Positions 2,317-63,968 of a DNA stretch of 64,000 bases are shown here, piece by piece. The number at the start of each line of letters is the position of its first letter. Position 1 is the stretch's first letter. The stretch is from the NCBI GenBank assembly GCA_028583605.1, contig CM053326.1, forward strand, positions 10,238,587 through 10,302,586, written 5' to 3'. This stretch comes from Dastarcus helophoroides (lineage: Eukaryota; Arthropoda; Insecta; Coleoptera; Bothrideridae). Under the pieces are notes generated by a model that searched no databases, was not told the origin of the DNA, and worked only from the letters and a program-made list of their open reading frames with translations. The position numbers were made by a program, and so were the translations under genes.

Positions 2317-3310
2317 CTACCTGAAATTATAGCAAATTAAGTGCTTTTCTAAATTTTCCATAGTAGAATTTGTCGCCTTGTAGCAGGAAAATGTACGTTC
2401 AACATCACGAGACGTTATTGGGGCATATTTTGTATGCACACAAACTGTTAGGATTTAAACGAATATCTTTACAATCTTTACCGTTTAATTTTTTTTAACT
2501 CCAAGTACCCTTTGTTTTTATTAAGCACAGAAGTCAGTTTATCTAATACTATTTTAACTACATTTCCACTACAGTTGTAAATTTCAAATCTTCAACAAGG
2601 GCGGAGCTAACATTTAAAGGTAAACCACGTGTATCAAGCTTATCAATAATTTCCGCAATGTAATCAAAGTTGAACTTAATAAAAGCAAACTGGTTTCTAA
2701 CTTTAGGATTGTTAAAGAAGTCTATACATTTCTTGACTGCTTCAGAACCATCAGGATCAAACTGATAAATAACATCTTTAAGCTTTAAATAATTTGCAGC
2801 TAGAAAGTCGACTTTTTTAACCAAGTACCCCTCTGGTTAAAATTGGCTCTGGTGGTAAAGGTAGTTCTGCTAGATTTTCCTTATACATTTTCACTCTAGG
2901 CGAAGCTTTGACGAAAATTTTCTTAGCATTAGATACTAATTTATTAACTAAGTTATACTGTAGTCTTATTGTTTTAGCGACCCTGTGTAATACGTGTGCT
3001 AAACATGTACAATGTATTAAGGCGGGATAAAAAATGTTTAAATGTTCAGATGCTTTCGCCCCATATGGTATCTTATTCGGGAGATAAAAATTATTTAAAG
3101 ATGCATTTATAAATCTAGATATTGCCTCACTATTAGTTTTTTCTAAGCATTTCACACTAACTAGATGTCCGTTGCCATGTTCGTTATTTTTCAGTAAACC
3201 AATAACTAAATTTACGATGTATCTTTCTTTAACATCTGTAGTTTCGTCCACAGAAACCTGTTTTGCTTAATTGTTGGAAAAATGTCATTGTTTAGCATTT
3301 TTTATTATAA
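2317..3310 (-). pseudogene. hAT superfamily transposase relic
   Basis: On the minus strand the frame beginning VDETTDV (3251) carries the start of the hAT RNase H-like fold and an HCTCLAHVLHRVA stretch. Near 2820 the TRG/TWL region changes frame; it then runs on through FLAANYLKLKDVIYQFDP and stops at 2558. A further frame at about 2555-2470 (VLDKLTSVLNKNKGYL) follows. The C-terminal dimerisation motif, with SRDVERTFSCYK and ENLEKHL, lies at 2440-2320, ending in TAG at 2317-2319. The order matches CGBP1/ZBED-like hAT transposases. At least three breaks (an upstream stop and frame change near 3255, another near 2820, a stop near 2558) make it non-functional. Recognition is firm; family placement within hAT is not. 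Confidence 0.75.
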
Positions 3311-8412: not shown

Positions 8413-8908
8413 ATTTACCCTTATATTCTAAGAATATTCACTTCGTGCATGATCGACCGCACCCGAACGCGCATTGCGCATCCAATCATACACGTCGTAG
8501 TGTCACAATTCCTTATCTATCGACCTTAACTATTTTTAACAGAGATGAATGGCCTAAAGGCCAAGCGCAACCATTCATATGGTTGTTTCCAGCCTTATGG
8601 ATGGCTAAGCTTTCACATGCATTTAACATATAACTCTTATTTACTAACTCTTAAGAATTTAATATTATTATCTATCCTATGATCTTATTCAAAGGTATGT
8701 CGAGCCACACTTGACTTCTCAGTTCTTCCGTACCTCAAATGAGCCAAATGTTCCTTTAGTTCGGATTTTAAGAGATCGTCTAGTTTGCCTGACATACTTT
8801 TGAGGACAATCCCTACCTGAAATTTGGTAAATACCGGACTTATCCGTTTGCTCTACTTTATCCTCTAAACTACCCAAAAGCGAATTTGATTTTCCGTTAG
8901 AAGTATAA
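8413..8908 (-). pseudogene. Penelope-like element 3' part with GIY-YIG domain, minus copy
   Basis: The minus frame at 8913-8719 reads SLLGSLEDKVEQTDKSGIYQ followed by a diverged Cys segment and QTRRSLKIR. This is the GIY-YIG nuclease module at the C-terminus of PLE proteins: GIY is present and YIG appears as YVR. After QTRRSLKI a frameshift ends the frame, but the homologous DNA continues through the end of the coding region (near 8515) and into the PLE 3' noncoding sequence, to about 8413. PLEs copy themselves with a reverse transcriptase, and the GIY-YIG nuclease nicks the target. This copy is 5'-truncated and broken. Confidence 0.75.
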
Positions 8909-9490
8909 ACCAAATTTCATGTAGGGATTGTCCTCAAAAGTATGTCGGGCAAACTAGACGATCTCTTAAAATCCCGCTAAAGGAACATTTGGCTCATTTG
9001 AGGTACAGAAGAACTGAGAAGTCAAGTGTGGCTCGAGATGCCTTTGAATTGGATCATAGGATAGATAATAATATTAAATTGTTAAGAGTAGTAAATAAGA
9101 ATTATATGTTAAATGCATGTGAAAGCTTAGCCATCCATAAGGCTGAAAATAACCTTATGAATGGTTGCGCTGGGCCTTTAGGCTATTCATCTTTGTTAAA
9201 AAGAGTTAAGGTTGATAGATAAGGAATTGTGACACTACGATGTGTAATGATTGGATGCACATGCGTGTTCGGGTGCGGTCGATCATGCACGAAGTGAATA
9301 TTCTTAGTATATAAGAGTAAATTTTAAGATTAGATTGTTAATTTTCTCTCTGAAGATGACAGCTTGGCTGTCGAAATATTTTAGAGCAGACCTTTGTTGT
9401 GTTCTTTAATCTTTCTTGGTTTTAGGGGACAAGTTCTGTATTTCAATTTTTGAAGGTAACCAAGAACCAGTCCGTTCCACCAAAAAACTT
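8909..9490 (+). pseudogene. Penelope-like element 3' part, plus copy
   Basis: It begins inside the GIY-YIG region (Y of YVGQ-type motif at about 8940) directly abutting the minus copy, head to head. The plus frame at 8989-9222 covers AHLRYRRTEKSSVARDAFEL through the usual stop after VKVDR at 9222. The noncoding tail follows, with a hammerhead-like core at about 9346-9387, a TTTCTTGGTTTTAGGGGAC block and the end CAAGAACCAGTCCGTTCCACC near 9485. The GIY half is missing, so it cannot be active. Confidence 0.75.
9346..9388 (+). ncRNA. Hammerhead-like ribozyme core in PLE tail (copy A)
   Basis: The order is CUCU, CUGAAGA, a 6-bp helix GACAGC-UUG-GCUGUC, GAAA, then UAUUUU and AGAG. CUCU can pair with AGAG as stem I. 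This fits a type I hammerhead with a minimal stem III, with one extra U between CUGAAGA and stem II. In the other copies the bases after GAA form the palindrome ACGCGU; here they have decayed. Confidence 0.45.
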
Positions 9491-14507: not shown

Positions 14508-16260
14508 TGCGTCTCATAAGTGCGTCCAGGTCTCCGGATCGTTGGTGCCACCGCAGTGCGATTAAAGTGTAGTGAAGTAACCGCGCGAGAGCAGAGAGGT
14601 GTGTTCTCCAACGGAATTGTGCGACGATGAAGAAAAAAAAGCTGAAGGCTTGCGAAAGCGCAATGAGCCTGAAATCCGACGACGATTTCAAAAATATGTC
14701 GATAGGACATTAAAGGAAATACTTTTATTAATAGAAACGGCAATAAAAGACAAAGTAGGAGATTTGGGCGCTACACAAAATATAGAATGCTTGGTTGTTG
14801 AAGAGAAGAAAGAAGATTTTATCTCAACACAAAATAAAGAAGAAAATAAAGAAAACACTAAGAGTCCCGTCGCTAACTCAGGGAGTTTAGGGATGGAAAA
14901 GAAAAGAGAACAAAAGGAAAAGCGCAAGAAGATTGAACAATTTAAAATAACGCCTATTGAAGCAAAGCCAAGCAAAAGTAATAACAGGACTTGAGAAAGA
15001 AAAGGACAGGAACCTCCAGTTATTCTAGGGGGGCAAAAAATTTGGACGGAAACCGCGAATACCATGAAGTCGAAGAAAATTGAATACATCAAGGCGCAAG
15101 CAAGCAAGGATGGAATAAAAATCTATACTGCTCGCCCCAAAGGTCATCAAGCCCTTGTTAAGAAACTCAAAGAAAAGAAAATTCAGTACCACACGTACTC
15201 CCTTTCAGAGGAAAGAAACCTCAAGGCAGTACTGGAAGGAATTCCCACTTTCGTAAAGGAAAAAGAAGTTAAAGCTGATTTAAAGAAAAAAGGATTTCAT
15301 CCAACTAAAATTGTTCGGATGTACAAGAGAAGCAAGCGAAGGGCAATAATGCCGCTTGTCTTTGTTGAGCTAAACCGAGACGAGAAGAAGATTTACGAAT
15401 TGAAAACATGCTGCGGCCTAGATATAGGAGTAGAGGCCCTCAGAAGAAGAAAAGACGTCGGGCAGTGTTTCAACTGCCAAAGCTACGGACACACGCAGAA
15501 GAATTGCCATGCGGGCCCAATCTGCGTCAAATCCGGGCAAAAGCATGCGACGAAGACATGCGAAGTTCCGCAGACACAGCCGGCAAAATGCGCCAACTGC
15601 GAAGGAGCTCATCCTGCAAGCTATCGCTATTGTCCCACATTACCGAAAACCAAAAACAGCAAAAACAATACTGTAAAGAGAATCATGGGAGTCTCTTACG
15701 CAAGTAAAGCTCGGGCAAAGAAAGCAAAACAAGAAGACAACGAAAAGAAGACAGAAAAAGAGAAGACGAAACGGCAAAGAAACAAGAAGAGAGAGAGAGA
15801 ATAGAAGACAAAAGGGCAAAGGTAAGCGTTATTTTGTGTGACATGATAATGCAATTTTTTAGCTTAGGAGTATCCACAAAGGAAATAAACAACTTCATAG
15901 AGAAGATGCAGGAAGTACTTAAGATAGTCGAGTAAATCAAGAAGACAGGAAGCAGTTTACTAACCCCAGGCTTTTGTGTGGTTTTCCCCGGTCAAATGAC
16001 TAGTAGGCGAAAGAAAAACAAGGCGCTCCATACGCGTGAAGAGGGTTTTTTTTAGTGAATGACACAAAAAGGACAGATATGTAAAGTCTGCAGAAAAAAA
16101 GAGAGGCAGACATGGAAGGCCTGAATCTCTAGAGCGGCGAAAAAAGCAAACAGAAACAACGAGAGGAGACAAAGTTCTTAATAGAAAGAACAGAGCGACG
16201 AAGGAGTAAGAGAAAAGAATTCCGGACCCCACATGGAGATTAGAAGGCAAAGTCAGAGAC
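14508..16260 (+). mobile_element. LINE 5' portion (leader + ORF1) nested in the pogo element
   Basis: The region is visibly less AT-rich than its surroundings. It holds a leader (about 14508-14626), a gag-like ORF1, and about 300 bp after ORF1 without a recognisable ORF2. It interrupts the pogo element between the transposase start (14431) and the right terminal region. I could not find a convincing target-site duplication or poly(A), so the right boundary is approximate. The copy must be 3'-truncated or rearranged, since ORF2 is absent. Confidence 0.6.
14599..15935 (+). pseudogene. LINE ORF1, gag-like, PRE_C2HC plus zinc knuckles
   Basis: The first part (14599-14994) is Lys/Glu-rich and probably coiled coil. 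One in-frame TGA at 14992-14994 separates it from the second part (to 15804). There, residues HTYSLSEERNLKAVLEGIP to MPLVFVELNRDEKKIYEL match the PRE_C2HC domain of jockey-type ORF1 proteins. A good CCHC knuckle, CFNCQSYGHTQKNC, follows, then a damaged one (CVKSGQKHATKTC, second Cys to Ser) and a third, CANCEGAHPASYRYC. A slip in the AG run near 15790 changes frame; the other frame continues to TAA at 15933-15935. The ATG at 14627 reaches the main frame only through a slip in the A run just after it. Such proteins bind LINE RNA. Few breaks imply a fairly young insertion. Confidence 0.75.
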
Positions 16261-29559: not shown

Positions 29560-30612
29560 AACGATTAAATTTACCGTAGAGTTAGAAAAAGAAGGAGCAT
29601 TCCATTTTTAGACACTTTAATTATTAGGAATAAAAAAAATTTGAATTTGATGTATATAGGAAAGACACCAGTACCTTTCGCTATATAACTTCCGATTCTA
29701 GCCATTGTATACAACTAAAAATGGCAAGCTTCAGTTGTCTTACCCATCGCCTTCTGAATCTCCCTCTTAATAGAGAAAGATTCGGAAAGGAAGTTGAAGA
29801 CAATTAAACGTACCGCTGAGGTTAATGGCTTCGATCCAAATATTATTTATAAAATTACTAATAAGAATGTCAGTTGGTAAATACCACGACTTTCCGAGCT
29901 GACGAAAACAAAAACTTAAAGTTCGTCTCACTTCCATTTGAACCCTCGCTTACCCATGGTTTAGGTGGAATTTTACGAAAACAGGGCTTTCGGGTTGTTT
30001 ACAGTTCTAACGGCAAATTAAATTCGCTTTTGGGTAGTTTGAAGGATAAAGTAGAGCAAACGGACAAGTCCGGTATTTACCAAATTTCAAGTAAAGATTG
30101 TTCTCAAAAATACGTTGGGCAGACTAGACAATCTCTTAAAATCCGACTGAAGGAACATTTGGCTCATTTGAGGTACGGTAGAACTGAGAAGTCAAGTGTG
30201 GCTAGACATGCTTTTGAATTAGATCCATAGGATAGATAGTAATATTGAATTGTTAAGAGTAGTAAATAAGAATTATATGTTAAATGCTTGTGAAAGCTTA
30301 GCCATCCACAAGGCTGGAGACAACCTTATGAATGGTTGCGATCTGGCCTTTAGGCCATTCGTCTCTGTTAAAAATAGTTAAGGTTGATAGATAAGCAATT
30401 ATGACACTACGACGTGTATGATTAGATGCGCATGTGCGTTCGGATGTGATCGATCATGCACGAAGTGAATATTCTTAGTATATAAGGGTTAATTTTAGGA
30501 TTAAGTCTTAGTATCTCTCTGAAGATGATAGCTTGAAAACGCGTTAGAGCAACCTCTGTTGTGCTTTTTAATCTTTCTTGGTTTCAGGGGACAAGATTTG
30601 TATTTCAATTTT
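29560..30612 (+). pseudogene. Penelope-like element relic: RT end, GIY-YIG and tail
   Basis: This is the longest PLE copy. From 29565 it shows FTVELEKEG, IPFLDTLII and DTSTFRYITSD, the RT thumb region of PLEs, then THRLLNLPLNRERF and NGFDPNIIYKI. The frame at 29874-30230 carries HGLGGILRKQGFRVVYSSNG, KSGIYQI, a Cys pair, and QKYVGQTRQSLKIRLKEHL. That is an intact-looking GIY-YIG core with its catalytic Arg. A base change near 30230 shifts frame; homologous sequence continues to about 30393, followed by the noncoding tail to about 30612. The element is 5'-truncated, with three or more frame breaks. Confidence 0.8.
30513..30552 (+). ncRNA. Broken hammerhead-like core in PLE tail (copy B)
   Basis: CUCUCUGAAGAUGAUAGCUU is followed directly by GAAAACGCGUUAGAG. 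The 3' half of stem II (GCUGUC in the other copies) has been lost, so this copy cannot fold correctly. Stem I (CUCU/AGAG) and the palindrome ACGCGU are kept. Confidence 0.45.
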
Positions 30613-45325: not shown

Positions 45326-45655
45326 GCATCTAATCATACACGTCGTAGTGTCTTAATTTCTTTATCTATCAACCTTAACTATTTTTAACAGAGATGAATG
45401 GCCTAAAGGCCCAGCGTAACCATTCATAAGGTTGTCTCGAGCCTTATGGATGGCTAAGCTTTCACATGCATTTAGGATATAATTCTTATTTACTACCCTT
45501 AACAGTTTAATATTATTATCTATCTTATAATCTAATTCAAAAGCATGTCGAGCCACAGTTGGCTTCTCAGTTCTTCTGTACCTCAAATAAGCCAAAAGCT
45601 CCTTCAGTCGGATTTTAAGAGGTCGTCTGGCCGACAAACTTCTGAAGACAATTAT
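45326..45655 (-). pseudogene. PLE GIY-YIG C-terminal part, minus copy
   Basis: The minus frame at 45637-45362 reads KIRLKELLAYLRYRRTEK, then NNIKLLRVVNKNYILNACES and GPLGHSSLLKIVKVDR before the normal stop. This is the last third of the PLE protein, after the GIY-YIG core. A remnant of the core lies between 45655 and 45620. The copy continues outward at 43302-43490 beyond the LTR-like insert. Open over 91 codons, so fairly young, but 5'-truncated. Confidence 0.8.
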
Positions 45656-46040
45656 AGCAAAGAATTATATGTTATATCCAAGTGAAAGCTTAGCCATCCA
45701 TAAGGCTGAAGACAACCTTATGAATGGTTGCGCTTGATCTTTAGGCCATTCATCTCTGTTAAAAATAGTTAAGGTTAACAGATAAGGAATTGTGAAACTC
45801 CGACGTGTATGACTAAATGCGCATGCGCGTTCGGATGCGGTCGATCATGCACGAAGTGAATATTCTTAGTACATAAGGGTTAATTTTAGAATTAGATGTT
45901 AGTATCTCTCTGAAGATGATAGCTTGGCTGTCGAAACGCGTTAAAGCAACCTTTGTTGTGTTTTTTTTTTGGTTTCAAGGGACAAGATTTGTATTTCAAT
46001 TTTTGAAGATAACCAAGAACCAGTTCGCTCCACCAAAATT
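45656..46040 (+). mobile_element. PLE 3' fragment, plus copy (head to head with the minus copy)
   Basis: It starts at GCAAAGAATTATATGTTATA (in the NKNYMLNACES region) right where the minus copy ends. It keeps the coding end (stop near 45780) and the entire tail to CAAGAACCAGTTCGCTCCACC at about 46035. The arrangement is the same as at 8413-9490: two 5'-truncated copies joined head to head. Confidence 0.8.
45904..45950 (+). ncRNA. Hammerhead-like core in PLE tail (copy E)
   Basis: CUCU, CUGAAGA, UGAUAGC-UUG-GCUGUC, GAAACGCGUU and AAAG occur in order. Stem II pairs fully if one U-G pair is allowed, the palindrome ACGCGU is intact, and stem I has one mismatch. Confidence 0.45.
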
Positions 46041-48534: not shown

Positions 48535-50110
48535 TTATACAGCATGTCCCAAATTTATCATATGACGTTTTTGATGATTTTTTTAAATGGCAACCATATT
48601 TTTTTGACTATTCCTAAAGGGTATATCAAGCTACACATGAGTACCAAATTTTAATTTTTTATTCTTTGTCATTTAAAATATATTTACAAATTTAATAACT
48701 GACAAGAAATCTGATTCAATTTAATACAATTTTCATAATGCTTAAAAATCGTGTATCAGAAGGTTTTATACCTTCTGAATGGTTTGACATTTTTTGTCAA
48801 ACTGGGCTGACGTCTTGTCACAATCTTATAAAAAAGTTACTGAAAACAAATAAGAAGAGTAGTATCGTATTGATCGAAAAGCTTGTCGTTTAGTGAAAAA
48901 CACCATTTATTAAAAAATCGACGAAAATGCCGTACTTAACTGAAACCCATAAGATTAAAATTTTAATAATAATTGACTACGGAGAACAAGAACAAAGAAC
49001 AAAATGGGGCTGTTTGTTTATTCAGAGAGAAATATCCTGATTTACCACCCATATTGTAAAGTACCGTAAGCAAGATTGAAAAACAGTTTCGGGAAAATGG
49101 GAGTTTAAGAAACGCGCTCAATGAAAATGTTTAAATGAATGTACTTAAATCCTCATGTCCCTACTTGTCAGATAGGTAGGGAATTCGAAATTAGCCAGTC
49201 TTCAGTGGCAAGAATTCTGAAAATGCAAAAATTTCATCCTCATAAAATGACAATCCTCCATAAACTCTTAGAAGATGATCCGAATAGAAGACTCCGGTTT
49301 TGAGAACAAATGATGGATCTACTGGACAGAAATGTTCTTTCTAACCATAGAAAATATCCTATTTTCAGACGAATCAACATTTATGTTAGATGGTGAGCTA
49401 AATGGTCAAAATTGTCGTTACTGGGCAGAAAACAACCCACACTGGATGAGGGAAACCCATACTCAACATTCAGAGAAAGTCAACGTTTGCGTAGGGATTG
49501 TTGGTGATCGAACTATAGGACCAATTTACTTCCAAAGAAATCTCAATAGGGCGAGATATTTAGAATTCTTGCAGGAAGAGCTAATGCCTGATTTAACTAT
49601 TTGATTTCCTGATCCAGTCGAAGCTGATGTCCCGAATAGAAACATCTGGTTTCAACAAGACAGTGCCCCTCCTCATTTTGCAAGACCTGTCCGTGAGTAA
49701 CTGGATGATGTATTTCCAAGCAGATGGATTGGCAGAGGAGGACTTTTTGAAGGGCCATCCAGGTCTCCGGATTTAACACCTATGAACTATTTCTTATAGG
49801 GATATTTAAAGGGCAAGGTTTTTAAGACCAAACCTGCAAATATTGAGGAGTTGAAAGGACGAATAAGACAGACTAATTTCCCCCGAAGTAATTATAAATG
49901 TCTAAAACGAGTTTCAGATCCGTATAGGGTATTGTCATTTAGTAAATGGACAACATTTTGAACTTTTATTGAAGAGACAATTATTGAGTTGAATCAGATT
50001 CCTTGATTTTTCATAATATTTGTTAAATATCTTTTAACTAACAGGAAATAAAAAACTAAAATTTAGTGCGCATGTGTAACTTGATATATTCTTTAAGAAT
50101 CGCAGCATAA
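48535..50110 (+). mobile_element. Second mariner-like element, with inverted subterminal repeats
   Basis: A left stretch, GTATATCAAGCTACACATGA and on (48621-48662 and beyond), is matched by the reverse complement of the right stretch at 50041-50095 (ATATATCAAGTTACACATGC). The match extends roughly 80-90 bp. The outer left tip may be TA|CAGCATGTCCCAAATTT at 48534; the right tip is not clear. The transposase relic lies between them on the plus strand. Confidence 0.6.
48925..50006 (+). pseudogene. Tc1/mariner-superfamily transposase relic
   Basis: The N-terminal HTH region is readable from about 48940 (THKIKILIIIDYGEQEQR). The frame at 49332-49604 contains ILFSDESTFMLDGELNGQNC, with the first catalytic Asp, and RETHTQHSEKVNVCVGIVG. 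After a stop, NIWFQQDSAPPHFARPV holds the second Asp, and SRSPDLTPMNYFL (about 49760) the third acidic region. At least five stops or frame changes. It differs clearly in sequence from the mariner at 34337, so it is a separate family. Confidence 0.8.
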
Positions 50111-51043: not shown

Positions 51044-52681
51044 CACGAGCCCCTTTCCATTTGAGTTGGCCCGCCTTAATATTTATCAGAAATTTCGCAT
51101 TAGGGTGAAAAAAATAGAATGAAATATTAAAACTCCATATTGTTTTTTCTTTTAATAGTATTTTTAGTACATTGTAACCACATAAAATGCATATTAGGTA
51201 AATAAAGAGGATAACTATCATAAAATGTGAACAAATAAAAAAAATGTGAACAAATACAATAAATTAAGAAAACAAAAATGTTATCATTTACCACTGGATA
51301 ATATCCCCTTTATTTTTTATAACAGTTAAGATTCGTTGAGGTATAGTATTAACCAAACCTTGGCAAAAGTCTGGTGTACAACAATTCCATATTTCTTGAA
51401 GCCTTTGCTTCAGTTCAGGTATTGTTCGTGCAGGATGCTTTCGTAGCACCTTCTTTATCTCGTGCCATGAAGTTTCCATGGGTGATAAGTCCGGACTACT
51501 TGAAACCCATTCCATAAGTGGTATACCATGGTCTTCCATCCATTTTAAACTTCTTTTAGAGGTGTGGCATGCTGCGCTCTTCTGCTGAAACACGAACTCT
51601 TGGCTGGATGTCAAAAATTCTTTCATGACCGGTAAAAGTAATTTTTGTAAAATGGCCAAGTATTTGTTTGTATCCACATTTTCATTAATAAAATAAATTT
51701 TTCTACTGCTTTTGACGACATGCTACCTCACACCATAACAGATGCAGGAATCTTTACTTTTCTTTTGAGACAGTCGGGATGGAACGCCTCATTTTTTTTG
51801 AATAACTCTACTTCGACTGTCTCCAATACAAACTTCGAATCGATCCTCATCGCTCCATTGTATCGCATGCCATTGCTGAAATACCCAATCATTATGTTCT
51901 TTTGCCCATCTTAACCTGTTTTTCTTTTGCGGTGGTGTTAAAAATGGGTTTTCTTTAGCCTAATGCAAAATTGTCATTCTTAATTTTTTTAAGTTTTTTA
52001 TTGAAAACTTACTGTATAAGTCCCAGATCCCAATTTATGAGCTTTTCTGTGAGTTGTTGATCTAGAAATACACCTTCCAACACTATCTCTTCACAAAGCA
52101 CCTAACTGAAGTCTGTTTTTCTCGATAATTCTTTTTAATACTCTTCTGTCGGCATTGGTAATTTTATTTAATTTTTTTTTTCACATATTGGGGCTTTGTA
52201 GTGTCTAAACCGGTCATTTTATACCTTCTAACTGTATTTCTTAAACTATAACGCGATAACTCCAATAAATTTGCAATTTCAAATTTGGATTTCCCACACT
52301 TAAAAAAATTATTGGTAAGTGAAAGAATTTTGTCATCGATTACATTTTCTCTACCCATTTTAAAAAATGTAACTACCTTGAAGCTGTACCAAATGCATTC
52401 TGAGAGCTATGAGTAATAGCAATTATTTTGACTAATGTTTTGCACGGCCATCTTCGGAATATAGGTTTACTTTGTAACGGCGTATACTTGCAACATTTTC
52501 GCTTGTTTGTTACAAGTATGAATAGGGAATAATGAAATTGGTCTTGTCTACAGCAAATTATTAAATATACGTTATTAATTACTTTGTTACCTAAAACAGC
52601 TTGCAATATTTATTATCTTTTGTTAATGACCAAAAACCTAAGATTTTAATAGGTGGGCCAACTGAAATGGGAAGGGCTCGT
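51044..52681 (-). mobile_element. Full-length Tc1-type transposon, inactive
   Basis: The left end reads TA|CACGAGCCCCTTTCCATT from 51042 and continues GAGTTGGCCCGCC. The right end, reverse-complemented, reads TA|CGAGCCCTTCCCATT and continues CAGTTGGCCCACC. With the TA pair, the element is about 1638 bp, the usual Tc1 size. The inverted ends differ by several changes, so it is old. Confidence 0.85.
51288..52358 (-). pseudogene. Tc1 transposase relic (DD34E type)
   Basis: The minus frame at 52358-52164 (KFEIANLLELSRYSLRNTVR) is the N-terminal HTH. Around 51860, SDEDRFEVCIGDSRS holds the first catalytic Asp. The frame at 51677-51288 carries VFQQKSAACHTSKRSLKWM, where the second Asp of QQDNAPCHTA is replaced by Lys, and SSSPDLSPMETSWHEIKKVL, where the catalytic Glu is kept. 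Stops and frameshifts between 51700 and 52160, plus the lost Asp, show that it is inactive. Confidence 0.85.
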
Positions 52682-53099
52682 ATAACGCTAACATTAATTT
52701 TTCATTTAAGGTAAGTTTCATTAAAAACATATACAACATAGAAATATTGCTTCGGACCTTGGACTATAATAAAAAATGTGAGTTTCCCTTAAAGAACAAC
52801 CTCACCTCCTCCCATTGCCATTGCTAATATTTTTGGGAAAAAATGTCACTAAAATTCATGCCTGAAAAAAGCTAAATTGATCTATTCAAGAGATTTTTTC
52901 AAAAATTGTCAGTTTCCGAAAGGCGCATGACTTTTGAGACTCACTGTACATGTATTAAGTACACATAATGTATACCAAAATCAGTATTACTGGTTTTCAA
53001 CAGTTCAAATGTCATTTGACATCGTAGTGACAGACTAAAATTGACGAAATAATTTCGAGACCTCGTGGCAAATCAAAAGTTTACTTCACCTTTCTGAAA
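52682..53099. other. Upstream region of the micro-exon gene candidate
   Basis: About 420 bp without coding motifs between the Tc1 element and the first exon. The gene's promoter and leader should lie here, but I see no clear TATA or initiator element. Confidence 0.35.
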
Positions 53100-53415
53100 A
53101 TGTCCTTTACTGATTACGATATTTCCCCGGACGGAAAATATGTTGGAGCATCCCTGGATGCCACAGAACTGAATTTGCCTTACTCAAGATACCAACAATT
53201 TCCAAATTCATCTCCTGATTACAAATCAGTAGCCTCAACTAGAAAATTGACTTATGCTTGTTCTTGCAAAGCTCAAAGTCAGAGCGAAAGTCAAAAGTCT
53301 AATATTAAAGATCAAACTCATGGAATATCGAGGGATTCACTGGAACCATTGAAAATTGTGTGCCGATGCAAAGCTCCCTCGCCATCGTCGTCATCTCCTG
53401 ATGAATTAGAAACAG
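53100..53415 (+). CDS. Exon 1 of the micro-exon gene candidate
   Basis: It opens at ATG (GAAAATGTCC context) with MSFTDYDISPDGKYVG. It contains TYACSCKAQSQSESQ and, about 35 residues later, KIVCRCKAPSPSSSSPDE: two related units with Cys-x-Cys-Lys followed by Ser/Pro or Ser/Gln runs. The exon ends after ELET plus one base, at CAG|GTGGGA (53415). Reading through the donor gives only about 20 unrelated residues before a stop, which supports splicing here. Confidence 0.65.
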
Positions 53416-56400
53416 GTGGGAGCAGTCCATTTAGTTGTTTGAAGTTTATTACTTTTTTGCAGATTGTACTTGTCAAGTGAGCAGTAATTTATTGCCAAGT
53501 ATTGATGAAAGCATTTTAGTTGGAATAAAAGCTGTATATGATACTGTCAAATGTTTTCGTCCTTGTAAAGTAAGTAATTTGGTAATTCCAATCAATGACC
53601 AAGACAAATGGTTTATTCAAAATTTTTAAATTAAACTAATACACAAAACTGAAAAATAAAGGAGACCAAGCAAAAGTTAATTTTAATTCGATATACTTAT
53701 GATTATATGTTGTTGTCTTGTTTTTTCTAACTATATTATTACAAAAGTAAATTTATAATTAGAAAATTTATTTTTTGCAGGGTTGCACCCCTGAATACCG
53801 CGTGGTAGGTTGTACAACAGATTTAACATTCCAAATGTTTTCATGTTTTAATACAGGTTGAAGAAATAGATGTAGACGATGACTCTCTAGGACCAGTCCA
53901 GAGTACTAAAGTAACACTTGTTTGATTGTAAAGTATTTTTATTTATTCATTTTATTGTTTGCAGCTTGAACCTGTACCACCAAAAGTAAGAGAACTAAGA
54001 AATTCTAACTAAAACTAAATTAACCCATGGCATGAAATTTTTTTAGAATGGCAGAATTTCAGATGCAATAAGTATTCGGGTGAGTGTAACCAATAACTGA
54101 AAATCAAAATTATTAATTTTTATATAATATTGTTAGACTTCATCGCCAGGGCCACCAGATAGTTACAGAAACGTAAGTTATTAAATCTCAGAAACTAATT
54201 AAAAATCAAGGTCTATTTACGAAAAGTAGACCAAAAATTTCACAACAAATATGAAATACTTTTTTTTTGATGATGATGATAGTTTGCCTATCAAATGCTT
54301 GAGAAAAAATTGTGTATTTTTCATCTGAATCACAGCTTCCAGGAAAGTTAAATTCTAAGAGAACGGTACCTGAATCATCAGCAGTCATCAAAAATTACTG
54401 AAAAAAATTTCTCATTTAATCAATCCGGAAAAACTCGAAAATTCTAAATAAAGATAAACATTTAAAGTTGAGTATCCATAAAAATGTTAAAATATTATAT
54501 AAAAAAACATTAAAGGAGAAGAAAATCGGAATAAAAATTTAAAATTTTTAGAACAATTTCAGAATATATCAAACAAGTAACAAAAATTTTTTAAAAATCT
54601 TGAGATTAAGCTAAAAAGAAAAATCAAATTTTCAAGATCTGAAAGTATAAAAAAAGTGTTTATTTTGGAAAAAAACTCTGAATTTAGAAAGAAAATCAAA
54701 TATGATTTTTAAACAAACATTTTTATATTTTGAACAAATACCTGCTTTTTTTAAACATTAAGTTCGTCATCAAGTTTTTGTCTAAGGGTAGTAAAAATTT
54801 AGAGCGAAAAGTAAAAATTTAAAAAAAAAATCAAAATAAAGACTTGGAGTTATGGAAAAGTTAGTTTTGAAAAAAAGAATACCCGGTCTTGAAAAGACGT
54901 TATTTGAAGGTTAAGATTGAATTTTTTTGAACAATTAAAATTGTGTATATACAGTTTGTCCCAAGATGTAGTACTGAAAAATGGTTTCTTTTTTATTTAA
55001 GGCTTTATGAGAACAACTTTATAAAAATTCCTACTAGATCTGAAATCATTAAAAATGATATTATTTTTGTACAGGGAGCTTATTAATTTTTTGGCAGTTT
55101 TAAAAAAGGGCCAAGAGTGCATTGTTGCTATTTTGGATGGTGTCAAAAATTGGTACAAAGAAACGTGCTTTTTAATAAGAAATAATGCTTAACAACGAAA
55201 TTGTGGTTTATTTTTAAAAAATTAGACAAAATAGGTTACAAATCAAGGTTAAAGACGAAAAAATAAAGAGGCATTTAATAATAACAGTAAGTAATTAAAA
55301 TAAAACAATGTCATTCAAACGTATTACGATCCGTTTCCGTGCAAATTTTTACTCTTTTTATGATTTTCTATAGGCATTTCGTATAATTGCAGTTTTATTT
55401 TCTCAATTCTAATACTTAGACCGACAGATTTGAACATTGACCAGATTTAAAGGTTGGAAACCAAATTCCGTTTCGATCTTGTTAGATCTCGTCAGTTTGG
55501 AATGCCCAACTCAAACTTAGCAAATGCTCCGGTTGAAGCTAAATATAAAATATTGTAACGAAATGTAATTGTAAAGTTTGATTGGGAATTTTCTGGAAAA
55601 TTTAATAAGGAAGAAACGGCCGCGATAATAAATCAAACGGCAGATAAGCGCTCCAGAAATGTTGGCAAACGATAAGCCTTATGTGCTTGATTTTTCTAGA
55701 ATGCGAATCGGGATCTATATATATGGGGGTCCGGTTGGCTTTCCCGGAGTTAGTTGGTTGTTATAAGTCAATGAATAAGTTAGTTAATTAAACAGTGTTA
55801 GTGAATTACAATTGTTGTGTTGCGAAATCAGTTGGAAATAAAGTGGGTAAAGTTCACGGCGTATTAATCATTCGAACCGATAACGCGCAACAATATAAAA
55901 TTACAAATGTTCGCAATTGTAATTTGTGATGACACTAAATCTTCTGTGCTGTCTCGGGAGAAAAAAAAATGATTAACTGCCATAGGAATTAAAAAAGAAA
56001 TCATCTTCGTAATGAGATTAGATTAACTTTCACTTTTCTTGTCAAGTTCGATTAAGAATAAACTTTCTAATCATTCTTTGTGGTATTTTCTCAAGTAACT
56101 ACAAATTTCTAGGTGTAGAGCCACGTAACGATCTGTAGAAGAAATTATAGAATAGCTTCAATAGCTGTCAAGCAAACAAAATAGACCTAGAGTGCAATAA
56201 TGCATACGTTTCGTGGGCGGCATTATTATCATCCAGGTCTATTCTGTTTGCAATCTGAAAATGAACTAAAATTTCAAATCTAGACATTTTTGTAATTCTA
56301 AACTATATTTTTAAATAATGGCTTTCGATACCACCATAAATAACACCAGTTCACATAAGGACATTTTCTAGAATTTCCAGATAATCGAACTTCCTAAATA

Positions 56401-58743
56401 AAAAATAAAGAAAATAATAGTATTTCCAATTATTTAAGAACAAGCAGAAATTTGTATAAAGAATGACTTTCTTGTAAACCCACAAATAAAATAAATATCC
56501 CTCTTCGGTATCTTATTTAGAGACACAATGTATAGATCGCATGTGTGAATTATGAAGAAAAAATTTGGAGCGATAAAAAATAAACCTATAATCTATATTA
56601 AGAAAAAATCGTTTTTTCGTCGGTTTTTTTCTATGGTTCGTAATATATATTTTTTCATTAAGTACCAAATGTGAACAATCTTTGTACTTGTTTTTGTAAA
56701 CATGGGAAATCATTTTTATTAAAAATAGTAAAACTAGGTAAAATACTCCTTCCTCATCGCAAGAGCTATCTACGCCACTGTCTGAGAGATAGATAAAACC
56801 AAAAAAAAATCTCTTATTTATTTATGTACTTTTAAAAATATATTATCTAATATTTAGTTCATCAGCTCCATTATTCAGGTAACAGCATTATGAAAAAGTT
56901 AGACAAGACACGAAATAACGTCAACTTGTACAAAATATGTAAGCGACAGATGTTTGCTTCACTATTCGAGTTATACTTATAATAATAATAAAACAAATTG
57001 TTTAATTTTTTAAAGGGGCGTTCTCTGAGTTCAAGAGCAACACTTCCATGGGTAAGTTTAGCTTAGGAAGAAGTTTAATTAAGCACATTTAATGTAAGTA
57101 AATCTAGTGAATATTCATTCGATTTATTTAAATATATTTAATTTTTTTGTACTTTTAAACGCACACCCATGACATAAAATTTCTGTAGGATCCATCCAGG
57201 AGAACCCAACCCTCAATTACTGCAAGGGCATCATCTTTCAAAACAAATGACTTTAATCTCAAAGTAAGTCGAACTAATTTGATATTACTCTTTATTAATT
57301 ATTTGTGGTGTTCATGAATAGGTGTTTGCAGATAAAATAAAGATTACAGGGCAATGATCTGGTTTATAGAATTTGAAGATATTTCAAAGTCCAGATATAT
57401 GTAGCAGGTCGCAGAAGAAAATATTTATTTTTTAATTAGAAAATACTCAATCAGTTTTGATCTAAAAATATTTGTGCTACAACTTAGGTTCAAAAAAAAA
57501 AAAAAAACCTTCTAGCTTAAGAAGCTACGAATAAAAAATTATGAGAATCGACGTGGAATTTAGCACCATGAGTTTTAAATAATCTATGTTTAATTACTTA
57601 TTTTGCTAATTACTTATTACTATTAATTGTCAAAGTTAAAATGTGAAAAGATAAAGTAAAATCTCGAACAGTTTGCGACGACCATTACAAATATTTTCAG
57701 TTTTGCAAATCTATGAGAGAAACAGGTGATACCAATACTTTTTTAAAGCCCTCGAAGAGTTTTCGACGACCAGAACAAGCTTCTTGAATTTTCTATCTCT
57801 ATCAAAGGAACCGGTATTGTCGAGAATTTTTTTAGAGTACGTGTTATTCCTCTTTTTCTTCACAGACGCCACAGTCCTAGAAGAGTTCGTTTTTTGTTTG
57901 GGGAAAACTATACTTCCCTTAAAAGTACCTACTCTAAGCACTGAAATCTTTAGGTTGATACGTTAGAAAGGCTAAGACTCTTCGGATAAACTTAAGTTAC
58001 CTACTTTTTACAAATAAATTGTTTTTTTGAAACATATTATTTCAAATACTATTTACTAATTCTATTTTTAGGAACCATCTGTTAGATCAGCGTCATTTGA
58101 CCCTGAGGTAAGTAAAATATTAAATAAACACTTTTCATTTGTAAAATTTTTTATCAAAAACATACAGGCTATAACAAATTCGCTTCTCATTACACAGAAT
58201 CTCGAAAACGGTAAGAGATAAGCATCGGTTAAATCTGGGGCAAAGTTGCACAATATATCGGTTAAAAATATGCCGTCAATAAATCGAAAATATCTCTTGA
58301 TATGCTTGAAATTTTTGAGAAAAAGTAAAATATTTAATTTTCGTTTTTATTATCTGTTGGTGTTATTTAAAGAGCAAGCCAAAAAGATAAAAACCTTTTT
58401 TCGTTGACTTTATGTCGTTTGTTTTTTATCTTCCCCCAAAATCTGCTTCTGTTCATCAATACTTATATTGAGTACACTATCGAATTCTTGTGTAGGCTTG
58501 GCAATCAAGTAGACCTTGAAGGCTGGGGTTGGAAATTAATAGGTAATATTCTGAAGCTAATTCAAATTTTACCCTCCCCCATGCTCAAAAAAAACCTCTT
58601 CTTACCAGTTTCTATAATTGCAAAAAAGATTGCAGTACAAACATAAAATCCAACTTGTATGTACCAATTGTCAGGGCCAGTCTTGCTCCAATGTGGAATC
58701 CTATGCAACAGACGAGGATTTTTACGATATCAATGAGGAGTAG
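53100..58743 (+). CDS. Host micro-exon gene candidate (11 exons)
   Basis: I do not recognise the family. ATG at 53100; exons 1 and 2 (316 and 107 nt) are followed by tiny exons at 53781-53804, 53857-53910, 53965-53985, 54047-54079, 54137-54172, 57016-57051, 57189-57263 and 58072-58107, then a probable last exon, 58675-58743. Every acceptor is T-rich plus AG and nearly all donors are GTAAGT-like. All junctions after exon 2 are phase 0, and all these exons are multiples of three, so each could be skipped without shifting the frame. Predicted protein is about 267 residues, Ser/Pro-rich, with three Cys-x-Cys motifs, no signal peptide and no membrane segment. Most introns are 47-61 nt; intron 7 is 2.8 kb because of inserted repeats. 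The model rests on splice signals and frame only. Confidence 0.65.
53463..53569 (+). CDS. Exon 2 of the micro-exon gene candidate
   Basis: A 47-nt intron ends in TTTTTTGCAG at 53462. The split codon becomes Asp, giving DCTCQVSSNLLPSIDESILV, a third Cys-x-Cys unit, and then DTVKCFRPCK. The donor is AAA|GTAAGT at 53570, phase 0. The continuation of the Cys-x-Cys repeat across the splice junction is good evidence that the two exons belong together. Confidence 0.65.
53781..53804 (+). CDS. Micro-exon 3 (24 nt)
   Basis: Acceptor TTATTTTTTGCAG; codons read GCTPEYRV; donor GTG|GTAGGT. This is the weakest donor of the series, and a 21-nt version ending at CGC|GTGGTA is possible. Both are phase 0. Confidence 0.45.
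53857..53910 (+). CDS. Micro-exon 4 (54 nt)
   Basis: Acceptor TTTTAATACAG; codons read VEEIDVDDDSLGPVQSTK, an acidic segment; donor AAA|GTAACA. Phase 0 at both ends. Confidence 0.55.
53965..53985 (+). CDS. Micro-exon 5 (21 nt)
   Basis: Acceptor TATTGTTTGCAG; codons read LEPVPPK; donor AAA|GTAAGA. Phase 0 at both ends; the introns on each side are 54 and 61 nt. Confidence 0.6.
54047..54079 (+). CDS. Micro-exon 6 (33 nt)
   Basis: Acceptor AATTTTTTTAG; codons read NGRISDAISIR; donor CGG|GTGAGT. Phase 0 at both ends. Confidence 0.6.
54137..54172 (+). CDS. Micro-exon 7 (36 nt)
   Basis: Acceptor TAATATTGTTAG; codons read TSSPGPPDSYRN; donor AAC|GTAAGT. Phase 0. The following intron is 2843 nt and contains inserted repeats. 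Confidence 0.6.
55415..55540 (+). repeat. Fragment of the hairpin repeat family
   Basis: Blocks AGACCGACAGATTTGAACAT, TTGTTAGATCTCGTCAGTTT and AAATGCTCCGGTTGAAG correspond to those at 1745-1890 (opposite strand); the first two also occur at 23189-23323. Confidence 0.55.
55554..55892 (+). repeat. Solo gypsy LTR in intron 7 (TSD ATAT)
   Basis: 339 bp, TGTAACG...GCGCAACA, closely matching the LTR at 28756-29098 in opposite orientation. Flanks are ATAT at 55550-55553 and 55893-55896. It lies within the inverted-end element, so the order of events is element first, LTR retrotransposon second, recombination to a solo LTR last. Confidence 0.85.
57016..57051 (+). CDS. Micro-exon 8 (36 nt)
   Basis: Acceptor TTAATTTTTTAAAG; codons read GRSLSSRATLPW; donor TGG|GTAAGT. 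Phase 0 at both ends. Confidence 0.55.
57189..57263 (+). CDS. Small exon 9 (75 nt)
   Basis: Acceptor AAATTTCTGTAG; codons read DPSRRTQPSITARASSF and then KTNDFNLK; donor AAA|GTAAGT. Basic and Ser/Thr-rich. Phase 0 at both ends. Confidence 0.6.
58072..58107 (+). CDS. Micro-exon 10 (36 nt)
   Basis: Acceptor AATTCTATTTTTAG; codons read EPSVRSASFDPE; donor GAG|GTAAGT. Phase 0 at both ends. Confidence 0.6.
58675..58743 (+). CDS. Probable terminal exon 11 of the micro-exon gene
   Basis: Acceptor TACCAATTGTCAG; phase 0 reading gives GQSCSNVESYATDEDFYDIN, two more Glu and TAG at 58741-58743. The acidic end in the correct phase is suggestive, but the acceptor is ordinary, and no AATAAA is seen before the LINE that begins at 58845. 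The true 3' end may therefore lie elsewhere, or the LINE may have landed in the 3' UTR. Confidence 0.4.
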   Translation, partial: GQSCSNVESYATDEDFYDINEE

Positions 58744-58844: not shown

Positions 58845-61800
58845 AGTTTAATTCACTTGCAAAGGGTATCCTTATTATGCTTTCAAAGCGCTGCGAGTAG
58901 GATGCGAAAACCAAGATAGATGACGTCTTCTTAAAGAAGTATAGGTTGTAATTTTTGGGGAAAATTTCTTTCGGTAACAGTTCCATAACTTGAAAGTTCT
59001 ATAGAAAAAAGAGTCTTCGTGGACAGAAGTCCTCACTGTGTCAAGCTGGACCGCACAGGAATTTGCTGCTTCCGACTGTCTAGTACGCATCAAGAATCTT
59101 GCCCTTGGAGGGATCAATCCTACCAGTTCCTGCAAGCATCTTTCATGATAGTATTTGTAGAAAAAAAAGTCACCAATCATACGCCTGTGCGCTAGTGTTT
59201 TGAGAGAATCGGTCAGACTCTCGTCATCAATTAGGCGAATCGCTCTTCTTTGAATTGAATTCAAGAAAGCTAAAGTGCCTTTTGGGACTGAACTTCAAAC
59301 ATGAGAACAGTATTATAGTGTTGGCCAAACTTCAGCTTTGTATAGTGTTAACAGCTCTAAAAAGAAAGCCTAGCTTCTGAGAGGCGGACTTGGCAACGGC
59401 GCGCACATAACCGCCCCAAGAGAAGTTAGTGCTCGAATTCACTTCTAGGATAGATAGATTAGAGCCCATCGGAAGAATTTTACCGTCCATTAGTGTGTTT
59501 GTTGCATTATTCCTTGATGTTTTCTTAAAGAAAATCACGGCCTCAGTTTTTAAAGCGTTGAAGTCGACCAAATTGTTCTTACCCCATTCAAGAATAATCT
59601 CGAGATCCCGATTAATCGTATGTATCTGATGTTCCCTTAGTCGATCGAAAGCAGAGATAGATAATGGTTTGTCGAAGAAAAAAGATAACACAAGGTTACT
59701 ATCATCTGGGAACCTGAATATAGGATTGGAAGTTGAAGCTAAGAGATCGTTTATGTGTCACAAAAATAGAGTAGGAGACAAAACGGACTTCTGAGGCACT
59801 TCTGCGTTAATCGCAAATGTCTCGGATGAGATGCCGTTGACGACGACCAGAAGAGATCTATCAACGAGAAAATTGGATATCAAATGACAGTCCAGGAGGA
59901 AGACCATAAGATGTTAATTTGGCGAGAAGAGATCGGTGCCAGACTCTGTCGAAAGCCTTAGAAGTATCCAATGCCACAATCCTAGCCTCACCATGTTTTT
60001 CCATAGCTGAGTTACAGACATGAGTAACATATGCCAGGTAGATCGCCAGTGGAACGTTGTTGTCTAAAACCGTATTGCCTGTCAAAGATGATTCTATTTT
60101 TCCTCCAGATATTTAAGAATCTCGATGTTGATAACCTTTTCCATCACTTTAGATATAACGGGTAACAAAGATATAGGGCAATAGTTGTTAGCCAGATTCC
60201 GTTTTCCCTTTTTAGGGACAGGCTGCACTCTAGTAGATTTCCATATGTTAGGGAATACACTTTTGTCGTAAAAGAGTGTGAACAATTTGCTTAGGATATG
60301 AGTCAACCATGCGGCGCACTTCTTAAAAACAATAGCGGAAATACCATCAAGGCCAGAAGCTTTCGAAGTGTCAAGCTCAAGGAGAATCTTCCTGATTGTG
60401 CGTTGTCTGAAAACAACTTCAGGCATCGAAGTGTTAACCTTAGGAAGAATAGGAAGGTTTTGCGTTTCGAGAATCAAGATTGGAATTTTCAGCAAACATT
60501 AAGGCTAACATGTCAGCCTTTTTCTTGGAGGTAGTAGCAATATTGCTATTTTCATCGAGTAAAGGTGGAAAATTTGAAGGTTTAAAATTCTTTCTAATTA
60601 ACTTTGCAAATCCCGAAAAGGACCTGGAACCGCTCGGACAATTGAAAAGCATCTGGCGTATTTTACGATCGAAATCACCTTTTGCCTCGTCAATAAACCT
60701 GTTTACAAGAATTTCGTGCATCCACAAATATGGTCCCGAGTCTCGACTGAGGGATTATTTCGCCAACGACGATATGCGCGATTTTTGCAGGAGGCAGCTC
60801 GAGCACATTTTTTACTGAACCAAGATTTACTGGAGGCAGACTTCTTTTGGGAGTGGGAAGTTGAGCATTCCATACCAATCAGGATAGTTTCCGTGATGGA
60901 TTCGGCGACTAAGAAAGGGTTGTCTGAGTTAAAGCAGACTTCCTGCCATTGGAAAAAAGCAAAGAAGTCTCTTAATTCTTCCCAGTTTGCAGGGTTAGAG
61001 TGTCAAACCCTACGGGACTGCGTCTGGGAAGGAGGTGGGATATGAAGCGAGCAAAAGGTTGCTACAAACTTGTGATCCGAATTTCCAAGCGGTGATTTCA
61101 AAGATATTTTATACGAATTTGGTAAATTTGTAAGGAAAAGGTTGAGTAGATTAGATTGATGGGTATCGACATCAGGAATTCTTGTGGGTTACTCAACTAA
61201 TTGCGATAGTCCACAAGTGATGGCGAAAGCATCTGCCACCCTTCCCGCGTCGTCAGTTCGGGAAGAAAACCTTAACCAGGGGGTGTTGTGTACGTTGAAG
61301 TCACCGAGAAAGACAACCTCAGGTTTTGGATAATTCGTCTGTAGGTGATCAAATGTTACGGAGAGATAAGAGAAGAGCCGTCTGTATGAGGGATCGTGTG
61401 GAGGCAAATAAAGTGAACAAATGAATATTACTTCGTTTTTGGAGCAGATTTTCAGCCAAATCACATCAATGATCAACAGATTCCAGTGCTTCTTCTCGTT
61501 GACAGGACAGGTCGCTTTGTATAAAAGCACAAATTCCCCTCTTGTGTCGAAATTTTGTATGCAAGTCGTAGTTAGGGCAAAGCAAATGGACTGTATTGAT
61601 GAATGGGGAGACTTGGATTTGTGTCAGAGACAGCACATGGGGTCTTTCATTTTGAAGGTGTTGATGAACCGAGTTTAGATTTTGAGTTTAGATCTCGAAT
61701 AGTTACAGAATTGAATTTTGAATGAATTGTTTGAAAGAAACTTGGCCCGTCGGTACATTAAAATTTTCGGTCGATTTTGGATTCCCTCGTACACCCTCCA

Positions 61801-63205: not shown

Positions 63206-63446
63206 TTTTTCTTGAGAAATGATCTAGCCAGAGCTGCTTCTTCCCTCGGACATTCCTCTTCCAGCTTGACTTGCCGTCTCACAGGTACCTTTCTGAGACG
63301 TTTCTAATCACGGATCTCGCCATTTGTAAATTTTTGGAAATATCATAAGTCGGTTCCACTAATCCAACGCAGCAGCCTTAATCTCTTTCCATCACAGCCA
63401 TAACCGTATGTTATTGTTATGTTAAAATATTCTGCGCTGGGTCAAA
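63206..63446. other. Sequence between LTR fragment and integrase; not recognised
   Basis: About 240 bp with no readable motif. It may be decayed gypsy DNA, but I cannot support this. Confidence 0.3.
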
Positions 63447-63968
63447 AGTAAAGCTCGAATGACACCTCTTTATCCACAGTATGATGGAATAGTGGAAATA
63501 TTTAACAGGACCTTGGAGGAACATCTTTCGAAGGTCGTTTTCAAGCATCAGACAGACTGGGACCAACAACTGCCACTGTTTCTAATGGCCTATTGCACGG
63601 CAACTCATAAAACTACGGGTCAAACTCCCGCAACAGTGATCTTCGGAAGGGAACTGCGGTTTCCGTGTGACTTGGTGTTTGGATCACCAAGGAAGACTCC
63701 CAGGGAGACGAGGGGTTTCGTAAACGGCTTGAGAGAAGCGATATTAGAGACACATGCCCTGGTGCGGACGAAGATCAACTTGGCGACGGACCGGATGAAG
63801 ACCAGATATGACGTAAACGTGAACCATGGTGGTTTCAATGAGGGCGAACTGGTATGGCTCTACAACCTTCAGCGGAGAAAAGGAGTTTCGCCAAAGTTTA
63901 CGCCATCTCTGGTCTTCATCTGGTCCGCTGTTATTACTTTTTGTTACACTATTAATAATACTTTGTGA
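63447..63968 (+). pseudogene. Ty3/gypsy integrase fragment
   Basis: The plus frame reads MTPLYPQYDGIVEIFNRTLE, which holds the last catalytic Glu of the integrase core (HPQSDGMVERFNRTLE in the family; here R to I). It continues through LPLFLMAYCTATHKTTGQTP and FGRELRFPCDLVFGSP, then RMKTRYDVNVNHGGFNEGEL and VWLYNLQRRKGVSPKF, the GPY/F-like C-terminal region. The N-terminal HHCC finger and the two catalytic Asp residues are missing. The end (after PSLVFIWSAV) diverges from the family before the stop at 63966. Open over 169 codons, so a comparatively young fragment; not evidently the same element as the LTR piece next to it. Confidence 0.85.

Follow-up and report, generated by a model that had tools for sequence, protein, structure and literature searches.

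In a 64,000-nucleotide (nt) stretch of the genome of the beetle Dastarcus helophoroides (contig CM053326.1, positions 10,238,587 to 10,302,586 of the forward strand; hereafter the window), we found the start of what appears to be a long gene that begins at position 53100 and continues beyond the window. With a probability of roughly 0.7, we read it as one gene centred on an array of 36-nt repeat exons that would have grown by tandem duplication, in other words a spliceable minisatellite. The anatomy of the gene, its single locus, its retained splice borders and a constraint of coding type, strongest in frame 0, are read directly from the sequence. An initial annotation of the window had described two normal exons followed by a chain of eight phase-0 micro-exons; that string of tiny exons looks real, but it would be only the front end of the longer gene. 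Coordinates follow the window numbering, continued past 64000 for positions beyond the window end, or are given on the contig (C2); L009, L010, L011 and L012 are further regions of the same genome, and L010 starts right after the window.

The 36-copy exon array

We scored, in bits, the best chain of eight phase-0 exons in a piece of DNA, with generic consensus values as splice weights. At the original site, the eight exons named in the initial annotation scored 47.7 bits and the unaided best chain scored 49.1, recovering seven of the eight. The controls stayed far below these values: the maximum was 15.7 bits in 300 dinucleotide shuffles, 19.6 in the other window pieces and 23.9 in 90 stretches drawn from 15 further genome regions. 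The thresholds of this test were fixed after the exons were known, so as to admit them, and it is therefore the margin that counts and not a P value. In these sequence tests, the claim that the gene is made of a chain of phase-0 micro-exons is borne out. In the 40 kb after the window, the chain finder reached 52.9 and 51.5 bits, above the score at the original site, and in a listing of phase-0 pieces we found that the exon at 58072..58107 (forward strand; 36 nt, EPSVRSASFDPE) recurs repeatedly downstream as a 36-nt exon.

This exon is the first of 36 copies, one in the window and 35 at C2:10303020-10312273 (L010 434-9687). The 36-nt size thus recurs because the exon has been tandemly duplicated, with the other copies beyond the window. 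Tandem Repeats Finder gives a 91-base-pair (bp) period, with 16.4 copies at L010 426-1925 and 7.7 copies in 2503-3201; a 181-bp period is nested in the first of these stretches. The repeat unit is mostly about 91 bp, made up of one exon and an intron of about 55 nt, and each exon encodes a 12-residue repeat. The short array introns (n = 30) measure 51-66 nt, 13 of them exactly 55 nt. A profile that includes the splice borders finds 36 clear copies; an exon-only profile finds the identical 36 together with four weak matches (E 0.006 to 0.56), three of which adjoin the array. Dropped from the count were a 39-nt match at 64377 that lies 18 nt before the next acceptor, matches at 69136 (no AG) and 69581 (no donor), and weaker exon-only matches at 68985 and 85462, the last of these outside the array. 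The small exons at 74958, 75054 and 75131 are weak profile matches that we counted as separate exons and not as array copies. At L010 4980-5610 there are weak relics of the array unit that lack intact splice borders (68985, 69147 and 69584), a sign of decay at the array edge.

All 36 copies have an AG acceptor, and the donor is GT in 34 and GC in two, taken at base 37 for the five copies that are 37 nt long. The remaining 31 copies are exactly 36 nt and open. The five 37-nt copies are frameshifted; those at 65252, 65440, 65712 and 66903 reach a stop within the exon, and the one at 67175 shifts the next exon. The consensus repeat is EPSVRSNSFDPG, with the pattern E-P-S-V-R-(S/T)-x-S-F-D-P-(G/R). 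Among the 31 intact copies, Ser3 and Ser8 are each kept in 27, Glu1 in 26, Pro2 and Phe9 in 25 and Arg5 in 24, and positions 4, 6, 7 and 12 are the most variable.

By codon position (1, 2 and 3), the 31 intact copies diverge from one another by 0.27, 0.20 and 0.39. Taking intron changes among the copies as the neutral expectation, we counted 84 synonymous changes in frame 0 (93 expected), 127 non-synonymous changes (268 expected) and no stops (17 expected), a ratio of 0.53 (bootstrap 0.41-0.67). In the other five frames, the ratio is 0.78-2.11 and stops occur in 3-27 of the 31 copies. The changes fit frame 0 best, which points to a history of translation of the array in that frame.

The gene is a single-copy gene at a single locus. 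Exon 1 has only one place in the genome, and a 1076-base piece of the array has eight genome matches, all at the array locus, in a DNA search that skips common words. Apart from itself, the 550-nt exon described below finds a single, chance-like match, on contig C7 (E 0.036). This match lies in a frame that appears to resemble a LIM-domain protein, and we set it aside.

From the first exon to the 3′ end

All exons in the window lie on the forward strand. Exon 1 (53100..53415) starts at the first ATG of its own frame; the open frame that holds it, 53031-53477, has no ATG before 53100. It carries two N-terminal Cys-x-Cys units. Exon 2 (53463..53569, 107 nt) ends in phase 0 and has a third Cys-x-Cys right after the exon 1/2 junction, where the split codon encodes the Asp just before it. 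The three Cys-x-Cys units described earlier are present. One had been proposed to span a junction, but in this model no junction falls within any of them; it is a Cys-x-x-Cys that crosses the exon 2/3 junction. By eye, the N-terminus has no hydrophobic stretch, in agreement with the earlier statement that no signal peptide is visible.

The eight internal exons stand where they had been placed (24, 54, 21, 33, 36, 36, 75 and 36 nt), with AG/GT borders, phase 0 and an open joined frame. They are the micro-exon at 53781..53804 (24 nt, GCTPEYRV), a small exon at 53857..53910 (54 nt), micro-exons at 53965..53985 (21 nt), 54047..54079 (33 nt), 54137..54172 (36 nt, TSSPGPPDSYRN) and 57016..57051 (36 nt, GRSLSSRATLPW), a small exon at 57189..57263 (75 nt), and array copy 1 at 58072. 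Exactly three of the eight measure 36 nt and a fourth measures 33 nt; the earlier text had counted four as 36 nt or close to it. In place of 54137..54172, the unaided chain finder chose 54336..54365 (30 nt, LPGKLNSKRT), an uncertain candidate for an extra phase-0 micro-exon on the same strand that stands outside our model. The 75-nt exon contains RASSF, an R-x-S-S-F stretch that resembles the core of the later repeats. The GC content of the micro-exons is 45% (0.51/0.56/0.28 by codon position), compared to 19-36% in the ten introns of the earlier model.

That earlier model closed the gene with an eleventh exon at 58675-58743, giving a protein of 268 residues. The piece is in frame, has AG at its acceptor and closes with a stop codon, yet we consider a gene of this extent very unlikely, and the evidence speaks against 58675-58743 as the terminal exon. 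When we searched the genome with the 268-residue protein, the matches were its own exons and three further places at weak E values (2.5 to 6.6). One of these, L009, matches the last exon only (67 of 82 nt), and the similarity begins 16 bases upstream of the proposed acceptor and so passes across it. L009 holds a Cys-rich, apparently CXC-like exon with its own acceptor-like site; Pfam has no match for it. The L009 peptide finds 32 places in the genome at E ≤ 1 and 16 at E ≤ 0.001, with 58642-58743 among them. In three other copies of the family that we inspected, the surrounding frames (229-320 residues) resemble portions of a mobile-element protein, and three frames from two of these copies have no Pfam match. 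In our model, 58642..58743 (forward strand) is accordingly not an exon but a fragment of this dispersed, CXC-like and mobile-element-like family. The exon that precedes it, 58072-58107, is itself a copy of the array exons downstream, and the chain continues beyond the window. The piece at 58675-58743 is therefore most likely a dispersed-element fragment inside an intron, and the gene very probably continues beyond 58743. The 58642-58743 fragment may still have been captured late as an alternative last exon.

In the single-gene model that we prefer, the gene extends from 53100 to at least C2:10320800, at least about 29,000 bases. From array copy 1, an intron that starts at 58108 and fills the window to 64000 extends for 6.3 kb until the second array exon, which lies 434 bases beyond the window. 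Downstream of the array there are eight further phase-0 exons of 24-54 nt that code for much Ser and Pro. EPS stands at the start of two, and one has a GC donor. They are followed by a 550-nt exon (L011 7665-8214) that is open and has many cysteines and CxC units. Read-through from this exon meets a stop 17 nt later; splicing onward is the alternative. About 8.6 kb further downstream, L012 6820-7105 has Cys-rich frames (EPSCTCPACSN; NCSSNCNCQF) after acceptor-like sites, and the gene may in fact end in these frames.

The model has 46 consecutive small exons, all 46 in phase 0 with lengths divisible by three, of which 33 are 36 nt and 42 are 36 nt or shorter; only exons that are open and in phase were taken into it, without the five frameshifted copies, and the 3′ end is not included. 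Its coding sequence of 2638 nt encodes 879 residues without a stop, and the small exons make up 1665 of the 2638 nt (0.63). GC content is 0.44 in the modelled exons (0.48/0.58/0.25 by codon position) compared to 0.27 in introns below 220 nt.

Several observations weigh against one translated gene of this kind. The array copies share ancestry, and their counts are not independent; when we count distinct variants, the deficit is weaker (non-synonymous 48 of 76 possible, synonymous 22 of 27, stop 0 of 5). Two reverse frames (0.79, 0.63-1.03; 0.78, 0.62-1.02) overlap the interval of the coding frame at its edge. The five frameshifted copies retain their splice borders, so that full inclusion would be unproductive. 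Several intact array donors are weak by the consensus weights used (lowest –2.2), and two donors in the model are GC (73279 and 75308). We also tried to join the 550-nt exon to the Cys-rich candidates in L012, and left them unlinked because the best donor creates a stop codon.

A different history would be that a real exon spread by duplication and the once-coding array is now decaying, with most of the distal copies out of use and a product that is short or absent. The frameshifts in 5 of the 36 copies, the further weak relics without intact borders and the long mobile-element-rich stretches that separate groups of copies speak for it. Against it stand the AG acceptors and the GT or GC donors in 36 of 36 copies, the absence of frame-0 stops where 17 were expected together with the ratio of 0.53, and the open small exons and 550-nt exon downstream. 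On balance we find decay unlikely and keep to a gene whose array would be translated.

Sequence that resembles mobile elements lies inside and upstream of the gene. The 6.3-kb intron holds, at 58878-61623 (reverse strand) and 63426-63965 (forward), what we take to be remains of a retroelement without long terminal repeats and an integrase-like frame. Upstream of the gene, there are broken frames at 48900-50000 (forward) and 51291-52406 (reverse) that are presumably transposase-like. Elsewhere in the window, the frame at 14995-15801 (forward) is Gag-like and contains a PRE_C2HC domain (Pfam E 5e-12), and three mutually related frames lie at 8890-9219 (forward), 29865-30227 (forward) and 45365-45664 (reverse); these three appear to resemble the GIY-YIG endonuclease of Penelope-like elements.

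Comparison with known micro-exon genes

Protein collections, which may contain few genes from this kind of organism, gave nothing at E ≤ 10 for exon 1, for the 268-residue protein or for the reading frame of the 550-nt exon. Pfam gave no family for the 268-residue protein or the 550-nt exon, and the PDB gave nothing beyond one match at E 1.8. These negatives cover the 268-residue protein, exon 1 and the 550-nt exon, and leave out the array repeats and the full 879-residue model. Rfam gave nothing at gathering score in the window. In the open-licence literature, queried with a few synonyms over titles and the starts of abstracts, no gene of such design was found among the matches listed.

Long series of short symmetric exons that code for repeats are known from collagen, elastin and titin PEVK. 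The present gene differs from these in that its sequence is unrelated, its unit is a 91-bp minisatellite of an exon and an intron of about 55 nt, and frameshifted units are retained.

The nearest in design is the aphid megacycle gene. According to PMC9168663, in one species the gene comprises 118 exons spread over about 100 kb and has 15 internal repeats, and it is single copy in most aphids examined. Like the beetle gene, it is long, is split into very many micro-exons and encodes repeats within the protein; the megacycle repeat spans several exons, in contrast to one exon per repeat here. Many short internal exons of one phase and repeats inside one long gene, as in megacycle, are what would link the beetle gene to the bicycle/megacycle effector class as a distant member, an explanation that we regard as extremely improbable. 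Internal exons of the bicycle class are almost all phase 2 (PMC9168663), in contrast to phase 0 in 46 of 46 small exons here, and with the classifier, coefficients and cut-off of 0.72 from PMC9168663 the linear score is far below the cut-off, at –42.8 for the 268-residue model and –202.6 for the 879-residue model. We rejected bicycle/megacycle membership. No C-Y-C motif was found in the 879-residue model, although the megacycle repeats have no obvious CYC motif either (PMC9168663). The single locus differs from the large paralogous family of bicycle genes, and this speaks against bicycle only. PMC9168663 also describes salivary-gland expression of the bicycle class and many members with signal sequences, in contrast to the N-terminus seen here.

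Schistosome micro-exon genes (MEGs) are alike in that most of the coding region lies in very small symmetric exons (0.63 here) and skipping keeps the frame (PMC4350168). The same paper states that every MEG product has a signal peptide and that these genes appear to be confined to platyhelminths; in the beetle gene, no signal peptide is visible by eye, and most small exons are tandem copies of one exon. On the signal peptide, with the N-terminus judged by eye, we rejected MEG membership. The initial annotation had held that the protein would not simply be an aphid effector or a schistosome MEG product, and the strong rejection by the bicycle classifier and the lack of a visible signal peptide agree with it.

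A proposed spliceable minisatellite and its possible product

The encoded protein is apparently intracellular, with a high content of Ser, Pro and Arg; its ends are rich in Cys-x-Cys and its centre is an array of 12-residue repeats. The array would have grown by tandem duplication of the unit of about 91 bp, one exon with one short intron. Any subset of the small exons in the model could in principle be skipped without a change of frame, as every one of them is symmetric and in phase 0, and a gain or loss of units, whether in the DNA or by skipping, thus alters the repeat number and not the frame. Very short introns are usually recognised as pairs of splice sites across the intron. Of the 45 introns that separate the modelled small exons, 29 do not exceed 75 nt. 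Such lengths favour pairing across the intron and hence, we infer, inclusion of the exons. Splicing of the introns of about 55 nt by such intron definition would remove the usual difficulty of tiny exons. PMC8797185 similarly relates short fly exons flanked by short introns to intron definition. The fly exons share this size regime, but they are described there as a regulated neural splicing programme, while the exons here form a tandem array in one gene.

Because five array copies are frameshifted, at least these must be skipped in any full-length product; transcripts that include them may instead go to decay. The repeats would form a disordered tail with multiple sites, and their R-x-x-S-F core would suit a basophilic kinase. 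The Cys-rich ends may bind metal or cross-link. Judged from sequence features, a multi-site, disordered intracellular scaffold is the most likely role, which we put forward tentatively; structural roles in sperm or in the cytoskeleton are among the possibilities. At odds somewhat below even, we further propose that the minisatellite unit, a complete exon and intron, is selected for both splicing and coding. Repeat number would then be set heritably, by the copy number of the 91-bp unit, and somatically, by skipping of symmetric exons, and frameshifted units would persist hidden by skipping.

Tandem repeats in proteins commonly expand inside one exon; here the expanding unit brings its own splice sites. 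One locus therefore offers some thirty similar natural copies for studying how short exons and introns of about 55 nt are recognised, and the same copies are suited to asking by what means broken ones are skipped and how the number of repeats evolves while the frame is kept. Genes with very short exons are also easily truncated in reading or annotation. The object in this beetle genome would be larger and more regular than first described, a spliceable minisatellite within a long gene.

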